Shown: piece after piece, positions 1 through 16,008 of the stretch
Numbering within the stretch: position 1 is the stretch's first letter
Layout: each line of letters starts with the position of its first letter
IMG/VR virus record: IMGVR_UViG_3300009329_000162
Span: 1-23,124 of that record
Reading direction: 5' to 3' (one strand)
DNA length: 23,124 nucleotides
Origin: a virus
Made by a program: the position numbers and the translations under genes
The notes under the pieces: generated by a model
What the model saw: the letters and a program-made list of their open reading frames with translations, nothing else
Told to the model about the DNA's origin: nothing
The model's database searches: none

Positions 1-399
1 GATAAATAGCTGGGTATCACTATACTTTTTAGATTTATCACTAAATTGAGAGAGTATGCCATTATGAGCCATAACTGTTTTATGAGTGATACAAGATGTC
101 TCTCTTAAAAGTAGTTTTTTAGAGGTGATGACGAATGGGTGCGTATTACCGCTATCTACTCGCCCAGAGGTCGCAAGGCGGAAGTGGACAATTACCTCGT
201 CATTATCTTGAATATCCTGCTGTATTAAGGTATTATAGAAGTCGTCAAACTTCATAAAACCTTTTTGGATATAGACGTTCTCTTGATTTTCTTTATGGAT
301 AGCAAATCCCACACCATTGGGATTATTTGTAAAGCACCTATCCAGCAAGTCTTTGTCTGGCAGGTTTATTCCTTTAGGTTTTACGCAAATTATACACAT
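1..399 (-). CDS. Class II glutamine amidotransferase-like protein (partial, C-terminus off window)
   Basis: An open frame runs on the - strand from an ATG at 399 to the window edge, giving 133 residues without a stop. Cys2 directly follows the initiator Met, as expected for the N-terminal nucleophile of class II (Ntn) glutamine amidotransferases. Other family-like blocks are NPNGVGFAIH (26-35), HFRLATSG (72-79), NTHPF (85-89) and AHNGIL (111-116), which match the glutamine-binding Arg/Thr and oxyanion Asn-Gly regions. SDTQ (127-130) follows where the family often has SDTE. Such domains release ammonia from glutamine for a partner enzyme. The start overlaps the end of the upstream amidoligase gene by 10 bases, with a GAAAGGAG ribosome binding site inside that gene, so the two are probably translationally coupled. 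The partner is therefore probably the amidoligase. The synthase or second domain, if any, lies outside the window. Confidence 0.85.
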   Translation of the reverse strand, partial: MCIICVKPKGINLPDKDLLDRCFTNNPNGVGFAIHKENQENVYIQKGFMKFDDFYNTLIQQDIQDNDEVIVHFRLATSGRVDSGNTHPFVITSKKLLLRETSCITHKTVMAHNGILSQFSDKSKKYSDTQLFI

Positions 400-1628
400 A
401 GTCTTGCTCCTTTCAGATATTTATACAAAAAATTAGAGTTGATTTTTGTATAATCAAAAAACTCTCGCCAGATAACATCAGCGTCTCTATTCAATAAAAA
501 TCCAGCTCCTACCTCTTTTATAAAAGAGACTACACAGTCGCAAAGGCATAATGAAGCCCAGAAGCGTTTAAAATTTAATGTCCCTCTAAATATCCTTATC
601 TCAATAGTAGAGAGGTTGTTAAAATTTAAAGCGCTGTATCTGTTGCAATATGAATGAGCGTTCAGCTTTGTCAAGATATGCACAAGGGTATGGCTTCCTC
701 TTTTCTTGAGGTCTGTATAACTTGGCTGATTAAAGTTCGCCCATTGACGCAAATTCGCAGGTGTGCGTTGTGAAAACTTTGTCAATGGTTGCTGGCATTT
801 ATGAAAAAACATATCCAGCTTGTGTTGTTGTAAATTACTCAAAGCAGAGCGGGATATATGAACGTGTAGCCCGCAGTGGCCGCCTGTATAGCTTTTTGTC
901 CCAGCCCTGCGCAGTTCATTTAACATCTTCCGCCATTGGCAATCTCTGTGCGCCAGTAATGTATGAGGTTCAGAGACTATTTCAAAGCCATCAATTGAGC
1001 CATCGTCTTTGAGATAAAAACTATTGTTGCTGTTATACTTTTCTAACAAGTCTACAGTGTCCTCTGTATCATCTGGCTCTACTTCTAATTCAAAGCCCAG
1101 ATATAACCTCTTTGCAGGTATTAAACAAAGGGTATTATTCTTATAGGTTTTGTGCTTAAAGCGTGGTGAAGGTTTATATCCTGCGGAGTGTATGTTTTGA
1201 TGTCTATCAGCTACATCGCTATAGCAATTTTCACAATATAGACTGGCATTATGCCCGAAAGCGTCATCTCTGGAGCATACCTCATTACATTGAGCGCAGT
1301 AAAAATATCTTTCAGTAAAGCAGTCGTTGCAATAGTTATTATCTTCGTTTGGTGATGAATAGCAGTCATCATTATTGAATATTTCCCCGCAGTCATCACA
1401 AGTGAAGTAATGGTCATCATAGCAGTCTGGGCAAATATAGTTCCCAGCTACATCGGTGAAACATTTAGCTCTTTCTACATAATTATCGCAGTCGTCGCAT
1501 TGGGTAAAAGTTTCTCTAAAACATTTGTCGCAGTAATAAATCTTGTTGTGTTTGGTTGTGCCAGTATCCGCATTTAATTGGATATTGCACTCACTACACA
1601 ATAAAGCTATTTGTTTTGTGTCCTGCAT
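390..1628 (-). CDS. Zinc-ribbon amidoligase (Amidoligase_2 / COOH-NH2 ligase family)
   Basis: This 412-residue protein has two parts. Residues 11-135 hold eight CxxC knuckles at 11, 33, 44, 66, 77, 100, 111 and 132, forming four tandem zinc-ribbon or LIM-like modules of about 33 residues. Residues 177-355 carry the signature of glutamine-synthetase-fold amidoligases: GFELEVE (178-184), DDGS (208-211), FEIVSEP (215-221), HCGLHVHIS (251-259) and IEIRIFRGT (342-350). These acidic and His residues are expected to bind metal and ATP. The family is predicted to form amide or peptide bonds between carboxylates and amines. The substrate is unknown. The adjacent glutamine amidotransferase would supply ammonia, or the pair may act on a peptide or cell-wall component. 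The zinc modules could hold the target or nucleic acid. A GGAAC ribosome binding site precedes ATG 1628. The gene is transcribed away from the virion genes. Confidence 0.85.
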   Translation of the reverse strand: MQDTKQIALLCSECNIQLNADTGTTKHNKIYYCDKCFRETFTQCDDCDNYVERAKCFTDVAGNYICPDCYDDHYFTCDDCGEIFNNDDCYSSPNEDNNYCNDCFTERYFYCAQCNEVCSRDDAFGHNASLYCENCYSDVADRHQNIHSAGYKPSPRFKHKTYKNNTLCLIPAKRLYLGFELEVEPDDTEDTVDLLEKYNSNNSFYLKDDGSIDGFEIVSEPHTLLAHRDCQWRKMLNELRRAGTKSYTGGHCGLHVHISRSALSNLQQHKLDMFFHKCQQPLTKFSQRTPANLRQWANFNQPSYTDLKKRGSHTLVHILTKLNAHSYCNRYSALNFNNLSTIEIRIFRGTLNFKRFWASLCLCDCVVSFIKEVGAGFLLNRDADVIWREFFDYTKINSNFLYKYLKGARLCV

Positions 1629-1723
1629 AATTTGTTCCTTTCTGGTTTATACTACTGGTTGATATTCTTTTTTTCTTATATTGTCTTATCACCCCCTTTA
1701 TTATAGGTTATTATAATGTATTG

Positions 1724-1744: not shown

Positions 1745-1774
1745 ATTCTAACAAATGGCAAGGATAGATGTCAA
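1745..1774 (-). promoter_or_regulatory. sigma70-type promoter for the amidoligase cassette
   Basis: Read on the - strand there is a perfect TTGACA -35 box (1774-1769), an 18-base spacer and TAGAAT as -10 box (1750-1745, five of six consensus bases). Start would fall near 1738, giving a leader of about 110 bases before the amidoligase ATG at 1628. Confidence 0.6.
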
Positions 1775-3124: not shown

Positions 3125-4379
3125 GCAGGAAGCATTTGTAGAAGATAAACACCGTTTTACAATCTGTTCCTCCGGGACAAAGACTGGTAAGACGCTTGGG
3201 AGCGCTATCTGGCTTGTGAAGAAGGCATGGATGAACCCAAAATCATTATGGTGGTGGGTGGCCCCAGTTTATAAACAGGTTGATATAGGGTTTCGTAGGT
3301 GCAGAGAGCTGATACCAGAGGAACATAGAAGAGTTAATGAGGCAGAGAAAAAGATACGTCTTGATAACGGCAGTATTATTGAAGGAAGGTCAGGAGAAAA
3401 ACCTGACAACCTGTATGGTGAAGGTGTGTTTGGAGCCGTCCTTGATGAAGCTGATCGTATGCGTGAAGAAGCCTGGCAGGCCTTTAGAACTACTATTACT
3501 CAAACACAGGGCCCGGTCAAACTCATTTCAAATCCCGTAAAAAAAGGAAGCTGGTTCCATAATTTGTGGAAAGAAGGAAGGCGTAACCTGCCTGATAGTA
3601 TGATTTCCTCCCATATGATGAAAACTATCGAGAATCCCTTTATAAACCCAGAAGAAGTTGATATTGCCAAAGGCCAGCTTCCAGAGGATGTCTTTCGTTC
3701 TCTATATGAAGCTGAATGGCCGGAAGGGGAAGGCCTTGTCTTTAGGAACTTTACGCATTGTATTATGCGGGATATTAACAATGTAGATAATTATTTTGCG
3801 CAGGGGCCGAAGAGTTATTACACATACATAATTGGATGCGATTTAGCAAAGACAGTAGATTTTACAGTTCTGATTGTTATGGAGCGTGAGACTCGAAGGG
3901 TAGTAGATATTTTAAGGATGCAGAATGTTAACTGGAATGAGCAGAAATCAAAAATGATGGAGATGTCCTTAAAATGGAATAATGCGCAATTGGTAATAGA
4001 TGAGTCTGGTGTTGGCGTTCCTATCTGCGATGATTTAGAAGTGTTTGGATATAACATCGTAAGAGTTAAAACGCATGTAGATAAAAAAGATGTAATACAA
4101 AAACTTACAGTTGCTTTAAATCAGCGGCTTATAACCTTTCCAAAGGTTGATTGGCTTTTGGAGGAGCTTGAGGTCTACGGATATGAGCTTACACGCACCG
4201 GGAAAGTCCGATATACCGCACCGCATGGATATTCTGATGACGGTGTTATTGCTCTTGGCCTTTGCTGTGTAGGGCTTGATACATTTTTATATCAGAATAT
4301 ATACCATCAGAATATTTCAAATTGGGAGCAAGAGAATTATATTAAATCAATGGGAGTTTGCTATGGCGAGCAAGAATGA
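3081..4379 (+). CDS. terL: Terminase large subunit
   Basis: This 432-residue protein is the ATP-driven DNA packaging motor and nuclease. The N-terminal ATPase shows a Walker A-like loop SSGTKTGKT (30-38), Walker B GAVLDEAD (118-125) ending in the catalytic Glu, and a coupling motif LISNP (148-152). The C-terminal RNase H-like nuclease shows CDLAKTVDFTV (253-263), VIDESGVG (305-312) and YSDDGVIA (384-391), which supply the acidic metal ligands (about D254, D307, D386/D387). Length is near the usual 420-500. ATG 3081 has an AAGGGG-type ribosome site and overlaps the small-subunit gene. The 3' end overlaps the next gene by 17 bases. Nothing seems to be missing. Confidence 0.95.
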   Translation: MQSEKTLILPPMWNKQEAFVEDKHRFTICSSGTKTGKTLGSAIWLVKKAWMNPKSLWWWVAPVYKQVDIGFRRCRELIPEEHRRVNEAEKKIRLDNGSIIEGRSGEKPDNLYGEGVFGAVLDEADRMREEAWQAFRTTITQTQGPVKLISNPVKKGSWFHNLWKEGRRNLPDSMISSHMMKTIENPFINPEEVDIAKGQLPEDVFRSLYEAEWPEGEGLVFRNFTHCIMRDINNVDNYFAQGPKSYYTYIIGCDLAKTVDFTVLIVMERETRRVVDILRMQNVNWNEQKSKMMEMSLKWNNAQLVIDESGVGVPICDDLEVFGYNIVRVKTHVDKKDVIQKLTVALNQRLITFPKVDWLLEELEVYGYELTRTGKVRYTAPHGYSDDGVIALGLCCVGLDTFLYQNIYHQNISNWEQENYIKSMGVCYGEQE

Positions 4380-4815
4380 TAAAGAAGATAAGGCATTGCT
4401 TTCAAAGTTTATATTTGCAGCAGCTGCTTCAGAACCGACAAAAGAAAAGGTCAAGGTAGGCTTTATTCCAATAAATAGAATATCCGAACAGAAGGAAAAA
4501 TTTGGTTCTAACTTGAAAGAGGTTTTATACAATAAACGCAGTCCGTTTTATGAGGTTAATTCAAGGCTTTTTAAACTCGCAGATAGCCCTAAAAAAATGA
4601 ATGACGCTGATAAAAAGGCATGGGGGGATTCTCAAAAGGTAGCTTCTTTGATTATGGATAAAAGAATTGACGATCCTACAAAAGGGGCTGTATTTATGCT
4701 GGCACCAAATGAAGCAGAGTCAGCTTCGAAGGCATGGCCCAGGTGGAATGAGATAGATCCTGATTTTGTAGAGGGGAGTTATCATAGATTTTATAGATTT
4801 TCAGGAGGAGAATAA
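4363..4815 (+). CDS. SleB-like (Hydrolase_2 fold) protein, perhaps catalytically altered
   Basis: The 150-residue product shows the pattern of the SleB/CwlJ cell wall hydrolase family: INRI (37-40), then FGSNLKEVLYNKRSPF (47-62), then DDPTKGAVFM (103-112), W125/W128 and a closing GSYHRFYRF (138-146). Family members are lytic transglycosylase-like enzymes acting on peptidoglycan. In my alignment the catalytic Glu expected about 18 residues before the NR pair falls on Ala20, with the second family Glu kept as E24-P25. It may therefore be inactive or structural. It has no signal peptide. ATG 4363 has GGGAG six bases upstream and is preferred over an in-frame ATG at 4276 that lies deep in terL. 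It sits between terL and portal, an unusual place for a lysin. Confidence 0.6.
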   Translation: MASKNDKEDKALLSKFIFAAAASEPTKEKVKVGFIPINRISEQKEKFGSNLKEVLYNKRSPFYEVNSRLFKLADSPKKMNDADKKAWGDSQKVASLIMDKRIDDPTKGAVFMLAPNEAESASKAWPRWNEIDPDFVEGSYHRFYRFSGGE

Positions 4816-10083: not shown

Positions 10084-12456
10084 ATGCTAAAGATTAACAA
10101 TAAGGAATATGGATTAGCGCTTAATTTTATTTGTAGAGACGAAGAAGATACTCTTTTGAAAATGCTGGAATCTATCCAAGATGTAGGTTTTGATGAGGTA
10201 ATCTGCGGATGGACAGGCTCTAACCCTAAAACAAAAGAGATTCTTGATAAATTTAAGGTTGCTGTTTATAAGTTTGATTGGGTGAATGATTTTTCAAAGG
10301 CTCGAAATTTTGTTAAGGATAAAACTAAATCAGAATACATAATGTGGCTTGATTCTGATGATATTCTTCAAAAAGGACATTTAATTAAGAAGGTTTGTGA
10401 GGCTGAATTTTCAAAAGATTCTATGCTTGGAGCAATATGGTTTAGGTATGATTATGATTTTGATAAAGACGGTAATTGTGTAATGCAATTTTGGAGAGAA
10501 AGAGTTGTTAGAAAAGATTGGTTTGATTGGCGGGGGGCATTACACGAGACTTTAATACAGAAGCATTTGTGCCATCATTGCCTTGAGACAGATATTTCGA
10601 TAAAACATAATACAACGACTGAACGTATCCAAGACGGAGCTATGCGAAATCTCAATATTATTATAGCAAAATACAAAGAAGAAATTGGTAAGGGAGCTGT
10701 GGATCCGAGAGTCATATATGATTTAGCCCGCAGTCTTGCTGCCATAGGGCATAAAACAGAAGCAATAACAAAATATTTTGATTTTATTCGCCAGACTGGA
10801 AATGATGATGATAGATTTGAAGCTTATATTAGAATGGGCAAAATTTATCGAGATCAGCGTTTTTACGGAGAGGCCCGTAGAGCTGATTTAATGGCTCAAG
10901 GCCTTCGTCCTACATGGCCCGATTCTTATCTTGGATTGGCTCAAACTGCCTATTGTGAAGAAAAATGGGATGAAGTTATTACTTATACAGAATTAGCAAG
11001 CCTTTTAAAGCCTCCAGTAGGTATTATGCCGATAGACCCAATGGAATACGAAGCAAAGCCTCTATTATGGCTTCAACGTGCTTTATGTATGAAATCTTAT
11101 GTAAAACCCGGCAATGAAGCAAAAAGCCTTATAAATAGAGCATATGAAATAGCCCAAAAGGCTTTGAGATTTTATCCTTCTAATCAATGGCTTAAAGATT
11201 GCATAGGAAGTATGGAAGAGGCACAAAAGCATCTTTTGATTGAAGAGGCAGCTTTGGCAGTTGTTGAGTGGATGAAGGAAAATAAAAAGAGTGAAAATAT
11301 CCCCAAATTTATAGACCTTTTACCTGATATAGATAGGACTCATCCGTCATTGGTAAGGATTAAAAATGAATATTCAGCAAAGTCTTCTTCAAATCGTATA
11401 GTTATAATGTGCGGGCCTACAGCGGAACCCTGGTCGCCTTTAACTGCAAAGACAGGCGTAGGCGGGAGCGAAGAAGCAGTTATACACCTTGCGCAGGAAC
11501 TTACGAAATTAGGCTGGATAGTTGATGTATATAATGAATGTGAAAAGGCGGGGAATTTTGACGGAGTAAATTATAATTATTGGGAGAGTTATGACAAAAA
11601 AGCTCCTTGCGCTATTTTTATTGGATGGCGCCTTAATGAATTTGTCGATGTTGCTCCAGAAAATGCTTATAAAGTTTTATGGCTGCATGATGTTCAGAAA
11701 GAAGAATGGTATGCTCCAATGCGTACAGTGAAGATAAATAAGCTTTTTGTTTTATCTAAATGGCACCGCACAACTGTTGATTGGATACCTGATAACCAAG
11801 TCCTTATCACGGCAAATGGTATAGACCCATCTCATTTTAATATAGGCCTTTCTCGTAATCCCTTAAAGTGTATATATGCCTCTTCTCCTGATCGCGGCCT
11901 TGATTGTTTATTGGATATGTGGCCGAAGATTAGAGAAAAGGTACCTGAAGCAACTTTGCATATTTTTTATGGATTTACAAGGACTTATGATAAATGCCAC
12001 GAAAACGATATACGCTGGAAACAAATGAAAGAGCGTATCCTTAAAAAGCTCAATCAACCGGGAATATTTTATCGCGGGATGATAGGGCATAAGGATTTAG
12101 CGAATGAATTTTTAACATCGGGCACCTGGTTGTATCCAACTGAATTTACTGAAATAAGTTGTATTACTGCTATGAAGATACAAGCTGCGGGGGTTATCCC
12201 TGTCTGCACAAATGTTGCTGCTTTAGATGAGACTGTGCAGTATGGAATTAAGATAAATTGCAGTGATATTTATACGAATATAGAAAAACAAAAGAAATTT
12301 ATTGAGGCCACTGTATATTCTCTTACAAACGGATTTAATAGAGAAGAGATGATTAAATGGGCTAAAGAAAAATTTAGCTGGCAGAATGTAGCAAAAAAAT
12401 GGGATGTATTTTTTAGAGAGGCTTTGGTATGCGAAAACTCATCTTCCCAGATATAG
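10084..12456 (+). CDS. GT2-TPR-GT4 bifunctional glycosyltransferase fusion
   Basis: This 790-residue protein combines two sugar transferases. Residues 1-130 form a GT-A (family 2) domain: LALNFICRDEED (11-22), FSKARNFV (70-77) and the nucleotide-sugar/metal motif DSDD (90-93). Residues about 200-400 are helical with TPR-like repeats and include YDLARSLAAIGH and EAYIRMGKIYRDQRFYGEA. Residues 438-760 look like GT-B family 4: IVIMCG (439-444), GVGGSEEAV (458-466), ANGIDPSHF around 577, and an acidic C-terminal block TEFTEISCITAMKIQAAG around 686-703 in the donor-binding position. It probably adds two sugars to one acceptor. AAGGA precedes ATG 10084. Sugar donor and acceptor are unknown. Confidence 0.82.
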   Translation: MLKINNKEYGLALNFICRDEEDTLLKMLESIQDVGFDEVICGWTGSNPKTKEILDKFKVAVYKFDWVNDFSKARNFVKDKTKSEYIMWLDSDDILQKGHLIKKVCEAEFSKDSMLGAIWFRYDYDFDKDGNCVMQFWRERVVRKDWFDWRGALHETLIQKHLCHHCLETDISIKHNTTTERIQDGAMRNLNIIIAKYKEEIGKGAVDPRVIYDLARSLAAIGHKTEAITKYFDFIRQTGNDDDRFEAYIRMGKIYRDQRFYGEARRADLMAQGLRPTWPDSYLGLAQTAYCEEKWDEVITYTELASLLKPPVGIMPIDPMEYEAKPLLWLQRALCMKSYVKPGNEAKSLINRAYEIAQKALRFYPSNQWLKDCIGSMEEAQKHLLIEEAALAVVEWMKENKKSENIPKFIDLLPDIDRTHPSLVRIKNEYSAKSSSNRIVIMCGPTAEPWSPLTAKTGVGGSEEAVIHLAQELTKLGWIVDVYNECEKAGNFDGVNYNYWESYDKKAPCAIFIGWRLNEFVDVAPENAYKVLWLHDVQKEEWYAPMRTVKINKLFVLSKWHRTTVDWIPDNQVLITANGIDPSHFNIGLSRNPLKCIYASSPDRGLDCLLDMWPKIREKVPEATLHIFYGFTRTYDKCHENDIRWKQMKERILKKLNQPGIFYRGMIGHKDLANEFLTSGTWLYPTEFTEISCITAMKIQAAGVIPVCTNVAALDETVQYGIKINCSDIYTNIEKQKKFIEATVYSLTNGFNREEMIKWAKEKFSWQNVAKKWDVFFREALVCENSSSQI

Positions 12457-13250
12457 GCGAATTAGGATGGGCTTTGTATTTAGCTGCGTATATAAAATGG
12501 CTTCAAAAATATACAGATGATGTAGTCTGTGTCATGACAACGCCTGATAGATTTTGTTTGTACGAATGTGATGTAAGACTCCTTCCATTAGATTTTATAG
12601 ATAAATATAAAGATTTTCCGCAAGATTGCTTTGGGAGATATGGAATAGGTGATGCAGAGCTCAAGAGTTATTTTAAAGATAAGTTACCAGAAGGATATAT
12701 TATTCCTGAATATTTTTCTTTTGGGTTAAATAGATTTTTTGATGGTAAGGCTATTTTTGAATCATATAAAGTTTCATCTAATATTTTAATATTCCCAAGA
12801 AATAGAAAACAATTTCATCATTCTTTTAGGAATTTACCCGAAAGATTTTACGTTGATTTAATAAATATCCTTTGTCGTAAATTCTCTGACAAAAGAATTG
12901 TATCAATAGGGAGTAAAGAGGGCGCCCACGATATTATTTTAAACCATAGAAATTATTATAATAAAATCGGGCAAACCTCAATTCAGGATATTATTGATTT
13001 ATGTGATTATTCTGTAGCAGCTATAGGAGGAACTTCGGCTCCTCCTAAAATAACGCTTTTACAAAAAGTCCCTACATTTATTATAGGGCACGAGATAGAT
13101 AGATTTACTAAAAAAGAAAATTGGAATAATACAGATGTATGTTTTTGGGAGATTAAGAAGGAAGAATATTCTACTTTTAATGATTTTCGATGTATAGATA
13201 AAATAGTGGAGTTTGTGCAAAATGCGAATCAGCGCAGGCCTTATAACTAA
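12429..13250 (+). CDS. GT9-like glycosyltransferase
   Basis: This 273-residue protein fits the GT-B fold of heptosyltransferase-type (family 9) enzymes, in shortened form. The N-terminal Rossmann part begins LIFPDIGELGWALYLAAYIK (4-23). The C-terminal half carries ILIFPRNRK (119-127), RIVSIGSKEGAH (155-166), TSIQDIIDLCDYSVAAIGG (184-202) and the TSAPPKITLLQKVPTFIIG block (203-221), the usual donor-binding region. Typical family members are 320-350 residues, so this one is trimmed, and catalysis is inferred from fold pattern. It overlaps the preceding fusion gene by 28 bases and the next gene by 29. It could act on the same glycan. Confidence 0.62.
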   Translation: MRKLIFPDIGELGWALYLAAYIKWLQKYTDDVVCVMTTPDRFCLYECDVRLLPLDFIDKYKDFPQDCFGRYGIGDAELKSYFKDKLPEGYIIPEYFSFGLNRFFDGKAIFESYKVSSNILIFPRNRKQFHHSFRNLPERFYVDLINILCRKFSDKRIVSIGSKEGAHDIILNHRNYYNKIGQTSIQDIIDLCDYSVAAIGGTSAPPKITLLQKVPTFIIGHEIDRFTKKENWNNTDVCFWEIKKEEYSTFNDFRCIDKIVEFVQNANQRRPYN

Positions 13251-14637
13251 AAACGAAGATTTTTGTTTGGAGCAATCTATCCTATCTTATATAGATTATG
13301 TGGATAAGCTTGTCGTTATAGATGACAATTCTACGGATAATACTATTTCAATTATACAAACATTACAGAGAAGCTATCCAAAAATAGAACTTATTCAGGG
13401 AACATATAATGGGGATAAAGGTAAACAGCGCCAGGAATATCTTAAGAGAATGGATGGAGATTGGATTTTTTGTTTTGACGGAGACGAGGTCTTATCACGA
13501 AAATCTATAGAATGGCTTAAAAATTTCATAACTTCATGCCCAGATAATGATGTTGTTATAGGAGAGCATTTACATTTCTGGAAAGACTTTAGGCATGTTA
13601 TTAAAGGGCACGTTTGGCAGCAGGACCTACAGCGCGTATTTAGAAATATCCCGGGCCTTACTTATAAATATTGCCATCATTCCGTATGTTATGAAGATGG
13701 AAGAAATTTATATTCAGAGGCGAGTAAGAATGGCCGAGTAGGTATAGAGAAAAATGAATTTAAGATTTTCCACTATGCTTATTGTAAACCATCTAAAAAC
13801 ATACGAGACAAAATAGCATATTATATAAAAAGAGATAATGTAAATTATTCAGTTGATGATTTTTCTTATTTCAGCGGGAAGTTTGATTATCAGAGATATG
13901 GTAAGTATGGATTTAAGTTTTGCGGAAACTATAAAGATAACTTGAATTATTATTGGCAGGATGAAGTCGTAAAATGCGAAGGTAGTCATCCAAGAATAAT
14001 GAAAAATCATCCTTTATGGGAAAGGCTGCATAATAGAGTTATTGAGATAAATAAGTACATGGAGGAGCATTGGCAATTTAATAATCATTTAAGCTATCCG
14101 CATCATCAGAGAAGATTAGAAGAAACTGCTAAAGTATGCGAAGGTAAAACTGTCGAAGTAGGATGCGCTAATGGCGATTCGATAATGTATATGCAGAAGT
14201 TTAATCCACAGGCTGCATTTTTTGGAGTTGAGCCTACAGATTGGGGTTATAGAGAAGCAAGGAAAAAGGTAGGGACCCTATTGGTTTTTCAAGACTATGC
14301 AGAGAATCTTTCTTTCACAGATAAGAGTTTTGATACTGTATTACTGTCAGAAATAATCGAACATGTATTAGACCCAAAATTTATTTTAGATGAGGCTTTT
14401 AGAGTGGCAAAGAAAAGAGTTGTAATAACAACTCCTGCAAAACCTCATCCGGACCCAGATCATAAAAGAGTTATAACAATAAATGATATGAGAGGCCTTC
14501 TTAAAGATTATTGCGATGAAGTTGAAATAAAAGGATTGACTTTCGAAGGATGGGGTAATCCCCCAAAGGTAGCAAATAAGGAAGAGGATATACATTTTCA
14601 AATTGTAATAGCTAATTGTAGAAAGGTTGCAGAATAA
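13222..14637 (+). CDS. GT2 glycosyltransferase-methyltransferase fusion
   Basis: ATG 13222 gives 471 residues. An in-frame TTG at 13213 is less likely because it sits only a base or two behind the GGAG site. Residues 1-100 are a family 2 domain: AGLITKNEDFCLEQS (5-19), VVIDDNSTDNT (31-41) and FDGDE (85-89) for the metal-bound donor sugar. Residues about 280-470 are a class I SAM methyltransferase: TVEVGCANGDS (310-320) is the SAM loop, FFGVEP (about 334-339) is the strand-2 acidic motif, and SFDTVLLSEIIEHVLDP fits motifs IV-V. A sugar may be added and then methylated. It sits inside the overlapping glycosyltransferase run. The acceptor is unknown. Confidence 0.83.
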   Translation: MRISAGLITKNEDFCLEQSILSYIDYVDKLVVIDDNSTDNTISIIQTLQRSYPKIELIQGTYNGDKGKQRQEYLKRMDGDWIFCFDGDEVLSRKSIEWLKNFITSCPDNDVVIGEHLHFWKDFRHVIKGHVWQQDLQRVFRNIPGLTYKYCHHSVCYEDGRNLYSEASKNGRVGIEKNEFKIFHYAYCKPSKNIRDKIAYYIKRDNVNYSVDDFSYFSGKFDYQRYGKYGFKFCGNYKDNLNYYWQDEVVKCEGSHPRIMKNHPLWERLHNRVIEINKYMEEHWQFNNHLSYPHHQRRLEETAKVCEGKTVEVGCANGDSIMYMQKFNPQAAFFGVEPTDWGYREARKKVGTLLVFQDYAENLSFTDKSFDTVLLSEIIEHVLDPKFILDEAFRVAKKRVVITTPAKPHPDPDHKRVITINDMRGLLKDYCDEVEIKGLTFEGWGNPPKVANKEEDIHFQIVIANCRKVAE

Positions 14638-14638
14638 A

Positions 14639-15439
14639 ATGCTGGAATATCCTGTGCACATAGAATATGAAGTTACAAATCGTTGTAATATGTCTTGTAT
14701 TATGTGCCCTCATAAAATTATGAAGCGTAGACATGGCGATATGAGTATGGGAACCCTTATGAAAGTATCTGATGAATTGAGGGGCCATGCAAAGACTTCG
14801 TATTTACATCAAATAGGCGAACCTCTTATGAATAAGCATATTATTGATATGATAAATTATGTTGCGAGCGCAAATATCAGGTCAAGTATTTCTACCAACT
14901 GTATGCTTCTTGATGAAGAGATGACAGATAGGATTTTAAATTCAAAACTTGAAGAGATTATACTTTGTGTAGATAGTCTCAAAGAGAAGACTTATCAGGA
15001 AATTCGTAAAGGCGGAGATTTATATACGGTTTTGTGGAATATAAGGAATTTTTTAGCCGAGAAGAAACACCGTAAATCAAACATATATGTTCAAATTCAA
15101 ATGATAAAAATGCAGGAAAATAAGGATGAATGGGAAACTCTCCCAAAAAGTTTTCAAGATGAAGCAGTAAATAATATCTGGATGAAAGAGTATTCTACTT
15201 TTGCTGGCCATATTATAAAAGGAGAATCTGTTTCTCCTCGTAGATTTACTTGTTCAAAACCTTTTACGCATTTAACTATTCAATGGAATGGAGATGCTGT
15301 TGTATGTTGTAGAGATTATGATGGTGAGGCCGTAATGGGCAACGTGAATAATCAATCTATAAAAGACATATGGCACTCAGATAGATACAACAAGTTCAGA
15401 AAGACATTTAGAGAATCAAAATTTTGTAAGGAGTGCTGA
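14639..15439 (+). CDS. Radical SAM / SPASM-like protein
   Basis: From ATG 14639 (preferred over in-frame TTG 14627, which has no room for a ribosome site) the product is 266 residues. TNRCNMSCIMCPH (13-25) carries the CxxxCxxC motif (C16, C20, C23) that holds the 4Fe-4S cluster used to cleave SAM. The barrel follows, with KEEIILCVDSL-like strands and RKGGDLYTVLWNIRNFL. The C-terminal 65 residues hold extra Cys around 204, VVCC (221-224) and FCKEC (262-266), as in SPASM-type auxiliary cluster domains. Such proteins modify peptides, sugars or other small molecules by radical chemistry. A phage copy within a glycan cassette suggests sugar or glycoconjugate modification, but the substrate is unknown. 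It overlaps the next gene by one base. Confidence 0.85.
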   Translation: MLEYPVHIEYEVTNRCNMSCIMCPHKIMKRRHGDMSMGTLMKVSDELRGHAKTSYLHQIGEPLMNKHIIDMINYVASANIRSSISTNCMLLDEEMTDRILNSKLEEIILCVDSLKEKTYQEIRKGGDLYTVLWNIRNFLAEKKHRKSNIYVQIQMIKMQENKDEWETLPKSFQDEAVNNIWMKEYSTFAGHIIKGESVSPRRFTCSKPFTHLTIQWNGDAVVCCRDYDGEAVMGNVNNQSIKDIWHSDRYNKFRKTFRESKFCKEC

Positions 15440-16008
15440 TGAAGATAGGCGTATTTATACCATATTGTATACAGCTTAATGAATATCTTGGCGCAGTTGT
15501 AAAACAATTTAGCCAATGGGACGAAATTGTTATTATGAATTATGATTTTAAGAAAGAACGCCAAGAAGACTGTCGTAATAAAGGAATTGCGAAACTTGAA
15601 CATTGCGATTATGTGTTTACTGTAGATGCTGATGAATTGATACTTGAAGAAGGCCAAAGGAAGATTATTGAAAGGGCAACAAAGGAAAAAGCCGATGTGG
15701 TTTTTTGCCCGGTTATTCATTATACGCAGGATCTAAATTATAAATATAAGATGGCGGAACATATGCCTGTAATATTACTTAATCCTAAAAAAGTTAAATT
15801 TTATGAAACAAGATGCGTTAGGTTTAATGAACCTATTTATTGCAAAGATATTTTTGTTCATCATTTAGGCTTTACTCATAGTAAAGAAACTATGAAATGG
15901 AAAAATAAAAATTATTGGAATATAGGTAACTTAAAGGAAGTTGAACAGATTATGGACAGGGAAAAAGAATTTTGTCAATTTCCAGAGGAGTTAAGAAATG
16001 CAATATGA
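15439..16008 (+). CDS. Short GT2-like glycosyltransferase
   Basis: This 189-residue protein begins MKIGVFIPYCIQLNEYLGAV and has the DADE donor/metal motif at 63-66, inside a family 2-like core (about 1-120). The usual family length is 230-300 or more, so it is short and lacks a long C-terminal acceptor part. ATG 15439 is preferred over GTG 15433, which overlaps the AAGGAG site. The start overlaps the stop of the radical SAM gene by one base. The H-rich segment DIFVHHLGFTHSKETM (about 137-152) resembles those of short GT2 proteins found in other polysaccharide clusters. The sugar is unknown. Confidence 0.68.
   Translation: MKIGVFIPYCIQLNEYLGAVVKQFSQWDEIVIMNYDFKKERQEDCRNKGIAKLEHCDYVFTVDADELILEEGQRKIIERATKEKADVVFCPVIHYTQDLNYKYKMAEHMPVILLNPKKVKFYETRCVRFNEPIYCKDIFVHHLGFTHSKETMKWKNKNYWNIGNLKEVEQIMDREKEFCQFPEELRNAI

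Follow-up and report, generated by a model that had tools for sequence, protein, structure and literature searches.

Amidoligases of the glutamine synthetase (GS) fold and class II glutamine amidotransferases (GATases) form a minimal unit of two genes, which are nearly always found together in phages and in bacterial mobile-element settings. Here we describe such a unit at the end of a phage contig, where a ligase that carries a long amino-terminal LIM-like zinc-finger array is encoded directly upstream of, and overlapping with, its GATase partner. Both families, with intact motifs and conserved folds, are coupled in this manner across phages and mobile elements. Because the glutaminase gene is nearly inseparable from the gene for the GS-fold ligase, a glutamine-dependent amidating enzyme is the best reading of this arrangement, and the pair probably constitutes one two-component ligase of this kind.

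Phage amidoligase/GATase pairs have been noted since 2009, usually with a cell-wall or superinfection role assigned as a hypothesis, and have already been published in phiEco32, LUZ24-like phages, Marvin and MEP401. The phiEco32 pair was discussed by Iyer et al. (2009) and the Marvin pair by Mageeney et al. (2012), both as cited in PMC10580990, and a larger cassette has been described in podoviruses (PMC5498523, PMC3890496). Superinfection exclusion or a role at the cell wall has been put forward as a hypothesis for such pairs (PMC10580990, PMC5498523), while a role in nitrogen metabolism was proposed for a planctomycete phage, based on gene content and growth tests (PMC10945688). Our search, which covered part of the literature, returned no description of a LIM-like array on these ligases and no enzyme assay of any member. 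New here are the strictness of the two-gene linkage, the presence of a long LIM-like array on most ligases, and the delimitation of the minimal unit.

The stretch of DNA analyzed (the window, positions 1-23,124) is an entire IMG/VR record of 23,124 bp, part of a phage genome whose capsid, portal and terminase genes are of SU10 type and lie on the + strand; these genes support the phage context assumed in an earlier note on this DNA. The pair occupies the left contig end on the - strand, divergent from these late structural genes. The ligase gene (390..1628, -, stop included) is complete and encodes 412 amino acids; the GATase ORF (1..399, -) is open at the record end, which the gene leaves at base 1, and comprises the first 133 residues of a protein that measures ∼240-350 amino acids in intact relatives. 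The two genes overlap by exactly 10 bp, as previously noted, at the stop/start junction ATGTGTATAA (390..399, -), which places the GATase start codon within the last codons of the ligase. Shine-Dalgarno-like motifs can be read in the sequence 7 nt 5′ of each ATG: AGAAAGGA (1636..1643, -) precedes the ligase, and AAAGGAG (407..413, -), located inside the ligase gene, precedes the GATase. A promoter-like site, TTGACA-18-TAGAAT (1745..1774, -), lies ∼120 bp upstream of the ligase and is a candidate by its consensus match (11 of 12 positions, with a TG before the second hexamer), the region containing 17 such sites versus a mean of 11.0 (sd 3.2) in shuffled sequence. The ∼1.1 kb that separates the divergent pair from the nearest late gene (1629-2725) contains A/T-rich low-complexity stretches and no convincing gene; Rfam and tRNA searches of the window, including this interval, identified no RNA element and no tRNA.

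The protein encoded at 390..1628 (-) combines an amino-terminal LIM-like array with a GS-fold Amidoligase_2 domain, whose predicted active site looks intact. Pfam Amidoligase_2 (PF12224) matches it with an E-value of 2.5e-9 (37.8 bits, cut-off 22), and also matches 54 of 60 ligase relatives at E 0.01. In an AlphaFold2 model (pLDDT 88.8), the LIM-like fingers are amino-terminal and the GS fold is carboxy-terminal, the catalytic domain spanning residues 170-412 (393..1121, -) according to VIA-align. VIA-align of model residues 163-412 yielded Z-scores of 12.7 for YbdK (221 residues), 11.9 for plant glutamate-cysteine ligase and ∼11.7 for glutamine synthetase; the best 50 matches listed are all GS-superfamily enzymes, bearing out the earlier assignment to the GS-fold amidoligases. 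Seven residues (E180, E182, D209, E216, H255, E343 and R345) are invariant in the 60 relatives, which share 20-35% identity with the window protein. These fall within G-x-E180-x-E182 (1083..1097, -; a putative metal/ATP site), D209-G-S211 ... E216 (981..1004, -; S211 conserved in at least 90%), G253-L-H255-V-H257 (858..872, -; G253 also invariant, H257 conserved in at least 90%) and E343-I-R345 (594..602, -; invariant, a putative phosphate/metal site), and their putative role, by analogy with GS, is the binding of metal, ATP and phosphate. The GS-like fold and the conserved acidic, His and Arg motifs that mark the glutamine synthetase superfamily, including YbdK, are thus both present in the ligase, although identity to these enzymes is only ∼13%, and the window ligase differs from them in its added LIM-like array and in being paired with a glutaminase instead of drawing on free ammonia.

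The array itself (residues 9-138; 1215..1604, -) contains eight CxxC motifs, in columns that are at least 90% conserved, and profile and Foldseek searches match it to the LIM domains of CRP1, PINCH and LMO2. We refer to it as LIM-like because the resemblance is apparent in both profile and model, while the Pfam LIM cut-off is not reached (21.3 bits vs. 22.9, E 3e-4; 7 of the 60 relatives match at E 0.01). The ‘zinc ribbon’ of the earlier note is refined here to a multi-unit array rather than a single ribbon. Among 108 non-redundant relatives (those with a locatable catalytic start), 69 harbor an array of at least four CxxC motifs amino-terminal to the catalytic domain, 20 have one to three, and 19 have none, indicating that the array is dispensable for the core reaction.

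LIM domains are generally protein-binding modules. The prevalence of the array, along with Foldseek matches of the ligase model to PafA and Dop, which are GS-fold protein-modifying enzymes, is consistent with a pair that modifies proteins, in which the array would recruit a protein of the host or of the phage; amidation of a carboxylate on one of its side chains or at its C terminus (or ligation of that carboxylate to an amine) would then alter its activity during infection. LIM-like or treble-clef fingers may bind nucleic acids instead, however, and the 19 relatives without CxxC also argue against this explanation, which we put forward tentatively, as one possibility. The array could serve as bait in a search for the substrate, and with two small genes the substrate question is directly testable.

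The ORF at 1..399 (-) is, by its sequence, a class II glutamine amidotransferase with a predicted active site that looks intact, in keeping with the earlier identification based on Cys2. Pfam GATase_4 matches the 133-residue protein with an E-value of 6.5e-8 (32.3 bits, cut-off 23), and a profile of 53 relatives, when compared with the PDB, retrieved the glutaminase domains of GlmS (3e-13) and PurF (5e-11), EgtC not being among the matches. The motifs Met-Cys2, H-F-R74, N85-x-H-P-F, H112-N-G114 and D128 align with the GlmS glutaminase domain; in the printed alignment, HFR, THG, N-x-HPF, HNG and SDT fall on their GlmS counterparts. Cys2 (394..396, -), the predicted glutaminase nucleophile, is invariant in the 53 relatives. 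Also invariant are H and R of H72-F-R74 (178..186, -), a putative glutamine-binding Arg motif that aligns with H-T-R-W-A-T-H of GlmS; H112-N-G114 (58..66, -), a putative oxyanion-hole motif that aligns with the GlmS HNG; and D128 (16..18, -), a putative glutamine-binding Asp that forms an invariant column in alignments A4 and A6 of the relatives. The protein accordingly displays the N-terminal Cys nucleophile and the R, HNG and D motifs of class II enzymes, a pattern and fold held in common with GlmS and PurF, from which it differs in being a separate subunit with a GS-fold ligase as its partner. The contrary outcome envisaged in the earlier note, in which this gene would encode an Ntn hydrolase of another kind, for example a protease, is ruled out: among solved structures, its nearest relatives are the glutaminase domains of GlmS and PurF.

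GATase-fold proteins may nevertheless be gamma-glutamyl hydrolases, a counterpoint to ammonia transfer that arises from EgtC, matched at lower rank. By an EgtA/EgtC-like logic, the ligase would join a small amine to a gamma-glutamyl group, which the GATase-fold protein would later remove, with no transfer of ammonia. The top fold match of the ligase, YbdK, which we take to be a glutamate-cysteine ligase, fits such a scheme, as does the EgtC match of the GATase model; yet in that model, built for an intact relative (locus L048, pLDDT 88.2), GlmS is the best match and lies far above EgtC (4e-7 vs. 9e-4), and the sequence profile returns GlmS and PurF, not EgtC. Moreover, such a cycle would be futile in a system of only two genes, since no enzyme would use the gamma-glutamyl product before the group is taken off again. 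We consider this scheme quite unlikely.

In order to determine how strictly the two genes are kept together, viral contigs were searched separately with a ligase alignment (79 loci) and a GATase alignment (80 loci), profiles were run over every ORF of all loci, and ligases more than 80% identical were removed, leaving 111 two-gene loci. In 110 of these 111 non-redundant phage loci, the two genes share a strand and the ligase comes first, a figure that covers the subfamily represented by the best matches to window-like sequences rather than all Amidoligase_2 proteins. The genes are within 100 bp of each other in 89 loci and separated by -40 to +15 bp in 71, and 16 of the 110 share the exact -10 junction of the window; given this recurrent order and overlap, spurious ORFs overlapping by chance can be ruled out. 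Members with the 10-bp overlap are no closer to each other than average (mean identity 25% vs. 26%), suggesting that the junction is old or recurrent, and pairwise ligase and GATase distances are weakly correlated (r 0.22; the highest value among permutations was 0.16). None of the loci surveyed encodes both domains fused in one ORF, and loci lacking a partner are accounted for by contig ends (L087 and L151), with the one exception of Clostridioides phage AR1086-1.

A comparable linkage is seen in bacterial genomes, mostly of Oscillospiraceae, where the pair is present in 65 of 69 loci, so that the functional coupling of ligase and amidotransferase anticipated in the earlier note extends to both settings. 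Members of a resolvase-like recombinase cluster occur in 27 of the 69 bacterial loci, indicating mobile elements. An amidoligase and GATase pair is also present on a Mycobacterium intracellulare plasmid (L242, 2719-4391), where the GATase is annotated as glucosamine 6-phosphate synthetase. Clostridioides phage AR1086-1, by contrast, encodes a ligase without a Cys array and no such GATase anywhere in its 130-kb genome, from which it appears that ligases of the wider family can act alone; the next gene after this ligase resembles a nucleotidyltransferase at its start (L008, 3581-5770), and the ligase has close relatives on C. difficile plasmid records.

The pair is not a fixed component of the capsid lineage to which the window belongs. 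Both genes are absent from the complete sister phage ctKR88, whose major capsid protein is 71% identical, which suggests that they are gained or lost as a unit, and none of 10 loci recovered by terminase and capsid searches (partial contigs) contains the pair.

Clustering of neighboring genes recovered one family of the pair in 106 phage and 59 bacterial loci and the other in 103 and 56, a frequency that nothing else approaches, and Pfam scans of ∼200 flanking genes revealed no recurrent partner family. Given that most loci share no gene family beyond these two, the pair seems to be sufficient as a unit. PADLOC models gave no match to any of four proteins at E 0.1, and the pair was accordingly rejected as a known anti-phage defense system. 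Some pairs are located near replication genes, such as the primase, helicase and polymerase of MEP401, and zinc fingers could bind DNA, both of which would suit a pair that amidates a carboxylated base or nucleotide and thereby shields phage DNA from restriction. However, there is no recurrent base-hypermodification gene beside the pair, nor an enzyme to make a carboxylated base, and a DNA-hypermodification neighborhood was rejected on that account; we regard such a function as very unlikely.

The Mycobacterium phage Marvin/Raela pair (Raela genes 114-115; both annotated ‘glutamine amidotransferase domain protein’) shares gene order, the two-gene unit, a Cys-rich ligase N-terminus and a Cys2 GATase with the window, although the Cys-rich region is shorter and the ligases are 27% identical over 77% of their length. 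Methylophilales phage MEP401 (gp05-gp06, PMC10580990) has the same order and the same 10-bp overlap, but its ligase, ∼24% identical to that of the window, has a longer and different N-terminus, with two CxxC motifs before the catalytic domain. The phiEco32/LUZ24-type cassette likewise has a ligase followed by a GATase, but additionally encodes a RimK-like ligase, a gamma-glutamyl cyclotransferase and a COOH-NH2 ligase; its ligase lacks CxxC, its GATase is 510-676 amino acids in length, and similarity to the window pair is weak.

We used the phiEco32 and LUZ24 proteins as queries for these three accessory genes in the loci. Eleven non-redundant loci contain a RimK-like ATP-grasp gene, which in nine of them starts no more than 600 bp past the GATase end; all nine are beside ligases with one to three CxxC motifs (9 of 20 such loci), whereas the gene is absent from all 69 loci with a LIM array and from every bacterial locus, a split that may follow one marine lineage. 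Gamma-glutamyl cyclotransferase genes occur in nine loci and the COOH-NH2 ligase in no relative's locus; RimK-like and COOH-NH2 ligase genes are absent from the window, which ends inside the GATase. In L133 (8001-9679), L134, L136, L143, L147, L149 and L162, the ligase, GATase and RimK-like genes are consecutive, an arrangement that stands midway from the minimal pair to the phiEco32 cassette.

These distributions bear on the version of the amidating-ligase model proposed for phiEco32, in which the pair would amidate or cross-link a cytoplasmic peptidoglycan precursor and so exclude superinfecting rivals at the stage of adsorption, DNA entry or lysis. Class II amidotransferases AsnB/LtsA amidate peptidoglycan, and the ligase-then-GATase order shared with phiEco32 and LUZ24, the RimK-like gene directly after the GATase in the nine loci, and the published proposals of cell-wall modification (PMC10580990, PMC5498523) are all in accord with it. 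On the other hand, the accessory ligases are missing from the LIM-array loci, the phiEco32 and LUZ24 ligases are only remotely related and without CxxC, the pair is found in phages whose hosts' envelopes differ greatly, and the phiEco32 proposal is itself a hypothesis. We regard a cell-wall role, like protein modification, as a tentative possibility.

For the amidating ligase that we favor, the simplest reading of a glutaminase combined with a GS fold is amidation with glutamine-derived ammonia, not peptide addition. The GATase subunit, with Cys2 as the nucleophile, would hydrolyze glutamine to release ammonia, which would be handed to the GS-fold subunit; there, a carboxylate would be converted by ATP to an acyl phosphate, and attack by ammonia would give a carboxamide. 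The LIM-like array would most likely bind either the GATase itself or a substrate of macromolecular size, be it a protein or a precursor that bears a peptide, for instance a lipid-linked unit of the cell wall. The two genes are presumably co-expressed and, to judge from their junction, would be translationally coupled, separately from the divergent late structural genes. A host cell-wall precursor and a host protein are about equally likely substrates, and we agree with the earlier note that the substrate is not readable from sequence; its suggestion that the pair tags the envelope or phage products with an amide or peptide and excludes rival phages is speculation. A more specific proposal, which we consider rather unlikely, is that LIM-array pairs are self-contained, mobile, glutamine-fed protein-modification systems, in which the array picks a host or phage protein that is amidated during infection or in lysogens, the target being distinct from that of the multi-ligase phiEco32 cassette.

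Other genes on the contig include a sub-threshold, weak match to Cell Wall Hydrolase (Hydrolase_2, 1.9e-5) at 4276-4815, between terminase and portal. Between the capsid and tail genes lies a glycan-type block (10084-16008) encoding a 790-residue GT2-TPR-GT1 protein, a GT2-methyltransferase fusion, a further GT2 and, at 14627-15439, a radical SAM protein that includes a SPASM domain; the equivalent place in ctKR88 is likewise occupied by glycosyltransferase and methyltransferase genes.
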